A program made the translations under genes and the position numbers. A stretch of 27,325 bases of DNA, from IMG/VR virus record IMGVR_UViG_3300023215_002132, positions 1 through 27,325 of that record; one strand, written 5' to 3'. Of this stretch, positions 12,359 to 15,911 are shown piece after piece. The first letter of the stretch is position 1. Every line of letters starts with the position of its first letter. This DNA comes from a virus. The notes below the pieces were generated by a model that made no database searches, was not told the DNA's origin, and was given only the letters and a program-made list of their open reading frames with translations.

Positions 12359-12940
12359 ATGGATATAAGAACTATATTAGACACGCTTGAATATATTCAA
12401 ACTGATCAGAAACAAATTCTGATGGAAGGAAAATATACTCAAGCTAAATTACCTTATAAGCGAACAGCGTTAAGCCCTGTAATGTCAAAGGAAACATTAG
12501 ATTATCATTATGGTAAATTGCATAAAGCATATGTTAACAAAGCGAACAAGGGCGAGGGCGGAGATTTTCAAGTTGCTGGGGCTTTTTTACACAATTTATT
12601 TTTTCCACAACTAAAATCCCCAATTGGTGCAGTTAGTAATCCAAGCGGCCCATCAAAGGAATTAATTGAAAACAAACACGATTCTTTTAATAATTTTAAA
12701 AAAGCTTTTACTGAAGCTGCAATGAGTATTCAAGGATCTGGTTGGGTTTATATGAATACAAGCGGAAATATTAAAATTATTAAGAATCATAAAGTAGTAA
12801 ATAACATTGCCTTGCTTGTCGACTGGTGGGAACACGCATGGGTATTAGATTACAAGCATGATAAAGAGAAATACCTTGATAATATGTGGAAGATTATCAA
12901 TTGGGATATCGTTAATAACCGGATAAATGGAGTTAGCTAA
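12359..12940 (+). CDS. Fe/Mn-family superoxide dismutase with N-terminal extension
   Basis: A 193-residue protein. Residues about 31-190 are an iron/manganese superoxide dismutase, converting superoxide to O2 and H2O2. Ligands are H50 (ETLDYHYGK), H78 (GAFLHNLFF), D155 and H159 (VDWWEHAWVLDY); the gateway Tyr is Y58. GSGWVYM (126-132) and NWDIVNNRI are also family-typical. The position of the FeSOD outer-sphere Gln is G74, and the MnSOD Gln seems replaced by H144, so metal choice is unclear. The first about 26 residues are an extra segment ending QILME|GK, a match to the (I/L)xE prohead-protease site, suggesting a capsid-targeting propeptide (inference). It has its own late promoter and is flanked by terminators. 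Confidence 0.92.
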   Translation: MDIRTILDTLEYIQTDQKQILMEGKYTQAKLPYKRTALSPVMSKETLDYHYGKLHKAYVNKANKGEGGDFQVAGAFLHNLFFPQLKSPIGAVSNPSGPSKELIENKHDSFNNFKKAFTEAAMSIQGSGWVYMNTSGNIKIIKNHKVVNNIALLVDWWEHAWVLDYKHDKEKYLDNMWKIINWDIVNNRINGVS

Positions 12941-13219: not shown

Positions 13220-14137
13220 ATGAAATCACTTGATGGTGTAGTAATTAAAAAGGCAAATCGCCAAGAACACTTTACGCATGATCAAATTAATGCGTTTTCA
13301 AAGTGTGCTGACCCCAAAACAGGTGTATTCTATTTTCTAGACAATTATTTTAATATCCAGCACCCAATTCGGGGAAGATTGATATATAAAGCATATCCGT
13401 TTCAATTGGAACTTTTACACACTTATCACAATCATAGGTTTAATATTAATATGTTGCCTCGACAAACAGGCAAGACTACCACAGCATCTGGATACTTGTT
13501 GTGGCGCGCCATGTTTATACCTGATAGTACTATTTTAATTGCTGCTCACAAATATAGTGGCGCTCAAGAAATTATGCAGCGTATAAGGTATGCATATGAA
13601 TTGTGCCCAAACTTTATACGCGCTGGTGTAACAAGTTATAACAGAGGTAGTATCGAATTTGAAAACGGTTCACGCATAATAGCACAAGCTACAACAGAAA
13701 ATACAGGACGTGGTCTAAGTATTAGTATATTGTATTGTGATGAGTTTGCATTTGTGCGTTCAAGCATTGCTAAAGAGTTTTGGACTAGTATTTCGCCAAC
13801 CTTAGCAACAGGTGGACAAGCAATTATAACAAGTACTCCTAACAGTGACGAAGATCAATTTGCTCTTATATGGCGGGACGCAAATAAGTGCATTGATGAG
13901 CACGGTGACGAAACAGATATTGGTGTAAATGGCTTTAAAGCATTTCGCGCTTATTGGCATGAACACCCAGATAGAAATGAGCAGTGGAAAAAAGAGGAAA
14001 TAGGTCGTATTGGCGAAGAGCGTTTTAGGCGAGAGCACGACTGCTTAAGTGGTGATTCAAAAATAACTATCAAATTACAAACCGGCGAAATAAAATTAGT
14101 AACTATTAATGAACTAAAAAATTTATTGAGTTTATAA
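13220..14137 (+). CDS. 17: Large terminase gp17, N-terminal half fused to N-intein
   Basis: Residues 1-274 are the ATPase half of the T4-type packaging motor: Walker A LPRQTGKTT (79-87), Walker B ILYCDE (170-175) and coupling motif TSTPN (204-208), ending RFRREHD. Residue 275 is Cys and begins a 31-residue N-intein (CLSGDSKITI...NLLSL) that ends at a stop. The nuclease half is encoded separately from 14835. Functional gp17 therefore needs trans-splicing of the two polypeptides to join ...RREHD to CEFLIYDE..., giving about 521 residues. Start ATG 13220 has only a weak ribosome site (GAG). T4 gp17 is 610 residues; marine T4-like versions are shorter. Confidence 0.93.
   Translation: MKSLDGVVIKKANRQEHFTHDQINAFSKCADPKTGVFYFLDNYFNIQHPIRGRLIYKAYPFQLELLHTYHNHRFNINMLPRQTGKTTTASGYLLWRAMFIPDSTILIAAHKYSGAQEIMQRIRYAYELCPNFIRAGVTSYNRGSIEFENGSRIIAQATTENTGRGLSISILYCDEFAFVRSSIAKEFWTSISPTLATGGQAIITSTPNSDEDQFALIWRDANKCIDEHGDETDIGVNGFKAFRAYWHEHPDRNEQWKKEEIGRIGEERFRREHDCLSGDSKITIKLQTGEIKLVTINELKNLLSL
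14042..14134 (+). other. N-intein fragment (IntN), 31 residues
   Basis: Codes for the N-terminal splicing block: Cys1 with CLSGDSKITI (block A) and an amphipathic stretch ending in LKNLLSL. Most natural split inteins have N-fragments near 90-100 residues. This one is as short as those of the atypically split terminase inteins (AceL-TerL type) and lacks block B, which is instead on the C-fragment. Confidence 0.88.
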
Positions 14138-14152
14138 TTTACGATGAGATAG

Positions 14153-14160
14153 ATAAATAT
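14153..14160 (+). promoter_or_regulatory. Late promoter of the homing endonuclease gene
   Basis: ATAAATAT is followed by GCTT and the ATG at 14165, exactly the spacing seen before the other HNH-like gene at 2925. The predicted transcript would begin at or next to the start codon. An in-frame ATG at 14159 overlaps the promoter itself and is therefore less likely. Confidence 0.55.
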
Positions 14161-14164
14161 GCTT

Positions 14165-14851
14165 ATGCAAAAACATAAACATCATATTATACCAAAGCAT
14201 GCCGGCGGCACTGATTCTCTTGAAAATTTAGTTAAGTTAACAATCGAAGAACACGCGGAGGCACATAAGGTTTTGTATAAAGAATATAACCGATGGCAAG
14301 ATAGGGTTGCTTGGTTAAGTTTGGCAGGTATAATGAAAGACTCGGAACGCATTTATGAAATAGTAAAAAATTCAAATCGAGGAAATCCGTCGGGTTATAA
14401 ACATTCTGATGAAATAAAAAAACAGTTATCAGAATTAAAAATAGGTAAAAAAAATCCTATGTATAACAAACCCGCACACAATAGAGGTATTAAAAGGCCC
14501 GGCATTGGTGGTCGTAAAAAAGGAACGAAATGGTCGGAAGAAGAGCACCGGATACATAAAAAGATAAGGAGCAGGCCGGGCTATTATGATTATTTACAAG
14601 ACCCATCCCGGTGTAAAAAGATTAGTAATTCACGCAAAGGTAAAATAGGTGCTGCTGCTGGAAAAACTTGGTATAACAATGGCGAAAAAGAGTTATATGC
14701 TTTTAAATGTCCAGCTGGATTTATTAAAGGAAGAAAAAAACGTAAAAATTATAATAAAAAAGGATTGCTGTGGTATAATAATGGCAGTATTAATCGACAA
14801 TTTAAAGAAGGTTATGAGTTAAAGGAGTTTGTGCGTGGTAGAATTAATTAA
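14165..14851 (+). CDS. HNH homing endonuclease inserted within the split terminase
   Basis: A 228-residue basic protein (an ATG six bases earlier is possible). The N terminus KHHIIPKHAGGTDSLENLVK with LTIEEHAEAH is an HNH nuclease motif of the type common in phage homing endonucleases. HSDEIKKQLSELKIGKKNP (about 78-96) resembles a NUMOD3 DNA-binding repeat. The C terminus repeats a WYNNG segment twice (TWYNNGEKELY and LWYNNGSINRQF), likely further DNA-binding modules. It is free-standing, between the two terminase halves, and overlaps the C-intein start by 17 bases. It would spread the whole intein-endonuclease insertion into intein-less gp17 genes. Confidence 0.88.
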   Translation: MQKHKHHIIPKHAGGTDSLENLVKLTIEEHAEAHKVLYKEYNRWQDRVAWLSLAGIMKDSERIYEIVKNSNRGNPSGYKHSDEIKKQLSELKIGKKNPMYNKPAHNRGIKRPGIGGRKKGTKWSEEEHRIHKKIRSRPGYYDYLQDPSRCKKISNSRKGKIGAAAGKTWYNNGEKELYAFKCPAGFIKGRKKRKNYNKKGLLWYNNGSINRQFKEGYELKEFVRGRIN

Positions 14852-15167
14852 AAATTATAAAAATATTCAAGTTTTAACTGATTTGGGCTGGAGTAATTTT
14901 AAAGGTTTATTATGTAAAGGCGCTAAGAAAACCTTAAGGGTTAACACGAATTTAGAAGAAATTATATGTACTCCAAACCATGAGTTTTTTTTAGAAGGAT
15001 TTAAGAAAATTAAAGCAGAAGACTTAACGAGTAATACTAAAATAATTAGTAGTAACGGTATTGTAAATGTAATTGATATTGTATTTAATAAAGATGAAGA
15101 AGTATATGATTTATGCGAAGTAGAAAAAAATCACCGTTTTTATGCGAATAATTTATTAGTCTCAAAT
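14835..15167 (+). other. C-intein fragment (IntC), 111 residues
   Basis: Carries splicing blocks B, F and G. Block B is TPNHEFFL, with the conserved Thr and His; block F is VYDLCEVEKNHRFYANNL; block G is VSN followed by Cys+1. The last Asn is the cyclising residue. The usual preceding His is Ser, a known but uncommon variation. The C-intein is long because the split falls before block B. Confidence 0.88.
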
Positions 15168-15911
15168 TGTGAATTTCTTATCTATGATGAAACATTAATT
15201 GATAGCATGGTGTTAAGCAATATGCGAGGTCGCGATACTTTGTTTAGGCAAGGTACAGTGCGCTGGTTTAAGAAGCCTACACAAGGCAAATGTTACATAA
15301 TAGCATTAGACCCTAGTCTGGGTACGGGCGGCGACCCAGCAGCAATACAAGTATTTGATGTACCCAGCATGGAACAAGTAGCAGAATGGCAGCATAATAA
15401 AACACCTATACCCCAGCAAGTACAAATACTAATGAATATTTGTAAGTACATAAACGAAGAAACAAAAGAAGAAAATAATATCTATTATAGCGTTGAAAAC
15501 AATACTTTAGGCGAGGCTGCATTAGTTAGCATAGCAGATATAGGAGAAGAAAATATACCAGGAACATTCATAAGTGAAAGCAAGCGATCACATGGCAATA
15601 GCAGATTATTTAGAAAAGGATTCAATACTACTCAACGTGTTAAACTGTCGACTTGTGCAAAACTAAAAACATTAGTCGAAACAGGAAAAATGACTATTAA
15701 TAGCAAAAACCTTATAAGTGAATTTAAAACTTTTATTGCTAACGGCGCTAGTTATTCAGCTAAGTTGGGCGAAACAGACGATCTAGTAATGAGTACAGTT
15801 TTAGTAATTCGTATAGCAAACGAACTTAAAAATTATGTCCTAGAACTCGACATGCAAATTAGAGACACACATGACTACGATATCTCTCCTATGCCTTTTG
15901 TTGTATTTTAA
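14835..15911 (+). CDS. 17: C-intein fused to large terminase gp17 nuclease half
   Basis: GTG at 14835 is chosen because AAGGAG at 14822-14827 lies seven bases upstream; an in-frame TTG at 14829 is closer to it. Residues 1-111 are the C-intein (block B TPNHEFFL at 46-53; block F EVEKNHRFYANNLLVSN ending at Asn111). The C-extein starts with Cys (codon 15168-15170) as CEFLIYDE, a junction that fits the conserved CEF segment of gp17. The remaining 247 residues hold the RNase H-like nuclease, with IIALDPSLGTGGDPA (first acidic residue D48 of the extein), YSVENN and GETDDLVMS. The penultimate intein residue is Ser, not His. Confidence 0.92.
   Translation: MVELIKNYKNIQVLTDLGWSNFKGLLCKGAKKTLRVNTNLEEIICTPNHEFFLEGFKKIKAEDLTSNTKIISSNGIVNVIDIVFNKDEEVYDLCEVEKNHRFYANNLLVSNCEFLIYDETLIDSMVLSNMRGRDTLFRQGTVRWFKKPTQGKCYIIALDPSLGTGGDPAAIQVFDVPSMEQVAEWQHNKTPIPQQVQILMNICKYINEETKEENNIYYSVENNTLGEAALVSIADIGEENIPGTFISESKRSHGNSRLFRKGFNTTQRVKLSTCAKLKTLVETGKMTINSKNLISEFKTFIANGASYSAKLGETDDLVMSTVLVIRIANELKNYVLELDMQIRDTHDYDISPMPFVVF

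Follow-up and report, generated by a model that had tools for sequence, protein, structure and literature searches.

Split inteins of large terminases (TerL) serve as protein-engineering tools and are known mostly from metagenomic fragments. Genes fractured by split inteins and accompanied by free-standing endonucleases of an EDxHD-type family were reportedly described by Dassa and colleagues in 2009. Among the atypically split terminase inteins, the N- and C-terminal parts measure 25+104 amino acids (aa) in AceL-TerL, 30+104 in Cat-TerL and 37+115 in GOS-TerL (PMC11766414); together with VidaL (6VGV) they cover 25-37 aa for the N-intein and 104-115 aa for the C-intein. In the MIJ3 DNA polymerase, the PolB gene is fractured by a split intein and an HNH gene lies between the halves (PMC6892783). 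Here, we describe a locus on a single metagenomic contig, IMG/VR record IMGVR_UViG_3300023215_002132, whose analysed stretch of 27,325 nt (~27 kb) we call the window. As in MIJ3, a split intein divides a gene whose two pieces are separated by an endonuclease gene, but the gene concerned is terL, as it is for AceL-TerL, GOS-TerL, Cat-TerL and VidaL. We read the locus as a composite mobile element within terL, whose product would be trans-spliced and whose HNH endonuclease gene would carry a control cassette of its own, and we give this reading as a whole a probability of about 0.75.

By their TerL, the nearest isolates are the jumbo phages Phosso and Atu_ph07 and the PA5oct group, and the host of the element would be a jumbo-type tailed phage. 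The locus is not a chance arrangement, since the terminase halves match Pfam, PHROGs and T4 gp17 and the C-intein matches solved inteins (Table 1). The original prediction, made from the letters of the window without database searches, had described an ATPase half ending RREHD and followed by a 31-residue N-intein, an HNH gene, and a 111-residue C-intein joined to a nuclease half that begins CEFLIYDE. The open reading frames have the coordinates and residues that it gave, the middle gene matches Pfam HNH, NUMOD3 and PHROG 655, the C-intein matches VidaL and CatC, and intein-less alleles agree with the end of the ATPase half. Alignment of the exteins to intact relatives had been set beforehand as a test, together with a metagenome search for an intein-less allele; such alleles were found in two IMG/VR contigs (L001 and L002) whose terL product is ~90% identical in aa sequence to that of the window. 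In both, residue 274 of the N-extein directly abuts residue 1 of the C-extein, with no residue lost or duplicated, so that the junction is exactly RREHD/CEF and the intact product of these relatives has 521 aa. This is the size foreseen for the spliced protein, given that the C-extein coding sequence (15168-15908) adds 247 aa to the 274 aa of the N-extein.

Table 1. Features of the fractured terL locus in the window.
Feature	Positions	Strand	Evidence or remark
TerL N-extein (ATPase half, 274 aa, ends FRREHD)	13220..14041	+	Pfam Terminase_6N 2.7e-18; PHROG TerL 1e-66; T4 gp17 8.5e-33
N-intein CLSGDSKITIKLQTGEIKLVTINELKNLLSL, 31 aa, Cys1; stop 14135-14137	14042..14134	+	homologous N-inteins in L025, L054, L056 (55-60%) and others; absent from intein-less L001/L002
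Copy (mimic) of C-extein start, GAGTTTATAATTTACGATGAGAT, ~23 bp, candidate operator	14128..14150	+	16/22 to own C-extein start
T4-type late-promoter-like motif GATAAATA	14152..14159	+	5 nt before HNH ATG 14165
Free-standing HNH/NUMOD3 homing endonuclease gene, 228 aa	14165..14851	+	PHROG 655 homing endonuclease 1.5e-22; Pfam HNH 8e-5; Pfam NUMOD3 2e-6
C-intein, 111 aa, ends SN before Cys+1	14835..15167	+	VidaL 2.6e-5 (phmmer E); CatC (Cat-TerL) profile E 1e-14; AlphaFold2 model, top PDB match VidaL
TerL C-extein (nuclease half, 247 aa, CEFLIYDE start) and stop	15168..15911	+	Pfam Terminase_6C 8e-6; PHROG TerL 1e-46; RB49-like/T4 TerL nuclease domain 1.3e-15

We propose that the terminase halves are translated apart and almost certainly joined into the 521-aa motor protein by trans-splicing through the 31+111 aa split intein. 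The intein catalytic residues present in sequence and alignment are Cys1, block B TxxH (TPNH in the C-intein, which also carries the VYDLCEVEKNHRFYANN motif), the terminal Asn and Cys+1, with Ser instead of His as the penultimate residue. The C-intein starts at GTG 14835 (TTG 14829 is the alternative), and its AlphaFold2 model (pLDDT 94.3) has VidaL as its best PDB match (TMq 0.83, root-mean-square deviation 1.4). Both parts are under purifying selection among the relatives L025, L054 and L056, with ratios of non-synonymous to synonymous substitution rates (dN/dS) of ~0.2-0.4 for the N-intein and ~0.2-0.3 for the C-intein. The 31+111 split falls within the AceL/Cat/GOS-TerL size range and, along with the profile and fold matches, bears out the atypical AceL-TerL-type split that had been predicted; Cys1, and in most members Cys+1, are shared as well. 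Identity to the solved TerL inteins is only 24-28%. The residues before the cut are E-H-D in the window. Moreover, unlike AceL-TerL, GOS-TerL, Cat-TerL and VidaL, the window has an HNH gene with a mimic of its presumed target. The intein of the window is a further, new representative of this known kind of atypically split TerL intein, set in a fractured-gene layout.

Searching viral contigs with three queries, the C-half, the C-intein and the HNH protein, we recovered ~40 distinct viral inserts at the window terL site or at most one codon from it, including two isolate loci one codon away. Given this number, the class is a known one and the window is one of its many members, in line with the expectation that the member rather than the class might be new. 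Most inserts hold an HNH gene in the fracture, whereas L023, L122, L128, L131 and L133 hold DUF7487-type genes and the T4-like isolates Providencia phage PSTRCR_127 and Serratia phage 92A1 hold GIY-YIG genes. The endonuclease of the window differs both from these and from the EDxHD type reported by Dassa and colleagues. In the two isolates (L081, 2789-3502; L082, 2792-3502), which are possible culturable models, the terL intein halves also flank an endonuclease gene that overlaps the C-half by 14 nt, but this GIY-YIG gene is annotated as hypothetical, no mimic is found, and the insertion lies one codon upstream (EH/CAEF vs. EHD/CEF in the window). No nuclease gene is left in L021, in L103 and L107 (HNH gene deleted, with a 3' relic and the split kept) or in L119 (nuclease relic), and L110 encodes a contiguous intein in one frame; L103, L107, L119 and L110 form a decay series at this site. 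In L021/L022 (2258-5738) terL is broken twice, by a split intein with a DUF559/REase-like gene just after the Walker A region and by a nuclease-free split intein at the site of the window, and three-piece trans-splicing would be needed. An extra terL interruption near residue 172 (ILYC/DE, Walker B), with the N-intein-like start CLDGETTTVQIRDKK, lies beside a window-type insert in L240 (1082-1723), and similar breaks near this residue occur in L090, L091, L098, L101 and L154.

In several pairs of loci the inserts are far more alike than the flanking terminase, which argues that the whole fractured unit moves horizontally: insert vs. extein identity is 92% vs. 71% in L087/L088, 96% vs. 73/68% in L122/L128, 99.5% vs. 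87/91% in L105/L106 and 92% vs. 75/73% in L146/L147. A short co-converted extein tract is seen in L105/L106 only. In relatives, these comparisons show the N-intein, HNH gene and C-intein passing between phages as a block. What drives this transfer is very probably cleavage of intein-less terL by the HNH endonuclease close to the REHx/CEFxIxDET junction. For the window's own insert, mobility is inferred from its kin.

The original prediction had not noticed that a copy of the presumed target site and a putative late promoter precede the HNH gene, nor that the fractured arrangement is common (~40 distinct inserts) and mobile. The copy, which we call the mimic, overlaps the N-intein end and stop in another frame, where it reads EFIIYDEI vs. 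EFLIYDET in the C-extein. It is 16/22 identical to the window's own C-extein start (next best match in its terL, 13/22), and a degenerate site pattern with at most three mismatches occurs only twice in the 27-kb window, at the mimic and at 15171. The copy takes in just the C-extein half of the presumed target and omits the N-extein half, and it adjoins the putative late promoter. The mimic is conserved across most HNH loci, and for 21 of 28 of them no other stretch of the locus's own terL matches the spacer as well as the C-extein start does, with identities of 18-19/22 in L025 and L087 (19/22 in L087). Chance resemblance of the spacer was rejected by a test across loci, while the local-alignment p-values of single loci are often weak taken alone. 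Variants of the mimic co-occur with variants of the own target (IFDE/VFDE, VYDE, IND, Pro/Leu codon); this tracking is partial: in a permutation test, p ranges from 0.002 to 0.05 with the stringency at which relatives are merged. No mimic was seen at the DUF7487 loci or at the T4-phage GIY-YIG loci. In L105/L106 (3223-4017), a GIY-YIG domain sits on the NUMOD3/C-terminal part normally joined to HNH, and the mimic is retained.

In L152 and L218 an intein-less terL is followed at once by a free-standing HNH gene, with the mimic and the promoter motif in the short spacer. Judged by this distribution, the mimic is part of the nuclease gene and not of the intein, because two free-standing HNH genes beside an intein-less terL have it. 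The terL site of these two phages is diverged (CEFVQDEETL) and matches the mimic only at chance level, while the L152 mimic is 19/22 identical to the targets of other phages, as would be expected if the host's gene resists the endonuclease that it lives with. Separately, L155 (3951-4733) holds a related HNH gene next to a tmRNA gene (permuted-type). In front of its ATAAATA motif, in the position of the mimic, lies a copy of tmRNA sequence (19/20); a similar tmRNA-like sequence lies upstream in L243. When further HNH genes were surveyed more widely for copies of sequence from their neighbourhood, L155 was the sole clear case, the rest being noise. Two other readings of the mimic were tried and rejected. 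It is not made anew at each insertion, as L087, L088 and L094 share one mimic despite differing exteins and the free-standing genes have it, and it is not translated via a frameshift, as that frame is closed a few codons upstream.

Across the loci examined (26/26), an ATAAATA-like motif follows the mimic and the HNH ATG follows 4-5 nt on; hence ATG 14165 is the more likely start of the window gene than 14159. The plus-strand motif NATAAATA lies within 35 nt upstream of a gene start in 8 of its 9 occurrences in the window (p=4e-11), and we therefore read it as a T4-type late promoter, since it seems to behave like one in this phage. Its message, that of the HNH gene, may have almost no leader. 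Both Fe/Mn superoxide dismutase domains (Sod_Fe_C 2e-23, Sod_Fe_N 3e-13) are encoded by a gene at 12359-12940, two genes upstream of the terminase. This gene, an unusual phage cargo, is likewise preceded at its likely ATG, 12359, by the late-promoter-like AATAAATA. The HNH and C-half reading frames share 17 nt, and the HNH gene is under purifying selection (dN/dS ~0.1 among L025, L054 and L056). The AlphaFold2 model of its protein was poor (pTM 0.32) and was not used.

Homing-site-like sequences at the endonuclease's own promoter are known for I-TevI, I-TevII and I-TevIII of T4; in the case of I-TevI, operator and target are bound with equal tightness, the operator is cleaved ~100-fold less, and the enzyme's late promoter is repressed (PMC2988022). 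The window has the same anatomy, a copy of the presumed homing site at the endonuclease's own putative late promoter, presumably without a good cleavage site, at a comparable identity of operator to target (15/20 for I-TevI, 16/22 here). It differs in that a split intein or a free-standing gene is involved instead of a group I intron, and in that the mimic abuts the promoter motif and does not overlap it. Based on this shared anatomy, a half-target copy next to a late promoter, we consider the mimic rather likely to be an operator for autorepression of the HNH gene. The control cassette would comprise the ~23-bp copy of the C-extein side of the target, the T4-type late promoter, 5 nt and the ATG. 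The mimic would be bound, like the target, by the DNA-binding NUMOD3/C-terminal portion of the HNH protein; lacking the N-extein half-site, it would be cut poorly, and the protein bound there would silence the late promoter of its own gene in the manner of I-TevI. The balance tips slightly in favour of a broader view of this family of HNH homing genes, whether free-standing or in split inteins: the cassette would accompany the nuclease gene from locus to locus and keep partly in step with its target. It would then be an I-TevI-like autorepressor operator found beyond group I introns, and a readable hint at what an uncharacterised homing endonuclease cuts. As far as the literature consulted shows, the target mimic is new.

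Several observations weigh against this reading of the locus. Under strict merging of relatives, the tracking of the own target is marginal (p 0.05), the mimic is weak in L103, L151, L153 and L145 and only 13/22 identical to its own target in L088, the window alone gives a local-alignment p of 0.10, and no close copy of the window's own insert was found among the viral contigs scanned.

The decayed mimics of L153, L145 and L151, and the fact that homing genes often adjoin their targets, would also fit an old scar, that is, target sequence left where the HNH gene first landed by or in terL and now functionless, the rest of the scheme standing. We regard this as unlikely, given that the mimic has diverged less than the neutral, 4-fold sites of the HNH gene next to it for 321 of 325 pairs (pairs that are non-independent), that its position relative to promoter and ATG is fixed, and that L155 shows the same layout with a different sequence at a tmRNA target. 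Possibly, the mimic could instead be a recombination handle, a short homology to the cut target through which the HNH gene captured, or was captured by, terL and which helped free-standing genes to enter inteins: the copied side of the target is the one that adjoins the insertion, and the free-standing genes of L152 and L218 have it beside an intein-less terL. However, entry via the mimic alone would omit the N-intein and break terL, the inserts are already flanked by long extein homology on both sides, and the fixed promoter spacing would go unexplained, which makes a handle quite improbable. An assembly artefact or a dead relic, a fractured gene without a working terminase, might be suspected from a single contig and from the lack of a second copy of the exact insert, but is very hard to reconcile with intact frames and catalytic residues and with the same layout in ~40 distinct inserts, two of them in isolate genomes. 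Finally, although HNH-bearing introns are common in phages and the ICP1 terL is RNA-spliced (PMC10448857), removal of the interruption from the RNA as a self-splicing intron is hardly credible, as an Rfam scan found no intron in the window and the N- and C-inteins show purifying selection, intein motifs and the intein fold.

Taking the composite element as the preferred reading, the ~40 inserts are seen in genomic context together with intein-less alleles, nuclease-free and re-fused states, three endonuclease classes and free-standing HNH neighbours, and these states at the terL site would be plausible steps toward gene fracture. What sets the locus apart is the progression from a free-standing gene through a fractured one to loss of the nuclease, along with a mimic linked to the nuclease. 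Such states touch on collaborative homing, the coupling of free-standing endonucleases to elements that resemble introns or inteins. If the target mimic is what we take it to be, the targets of such endonucleases would be predictable from sequence.
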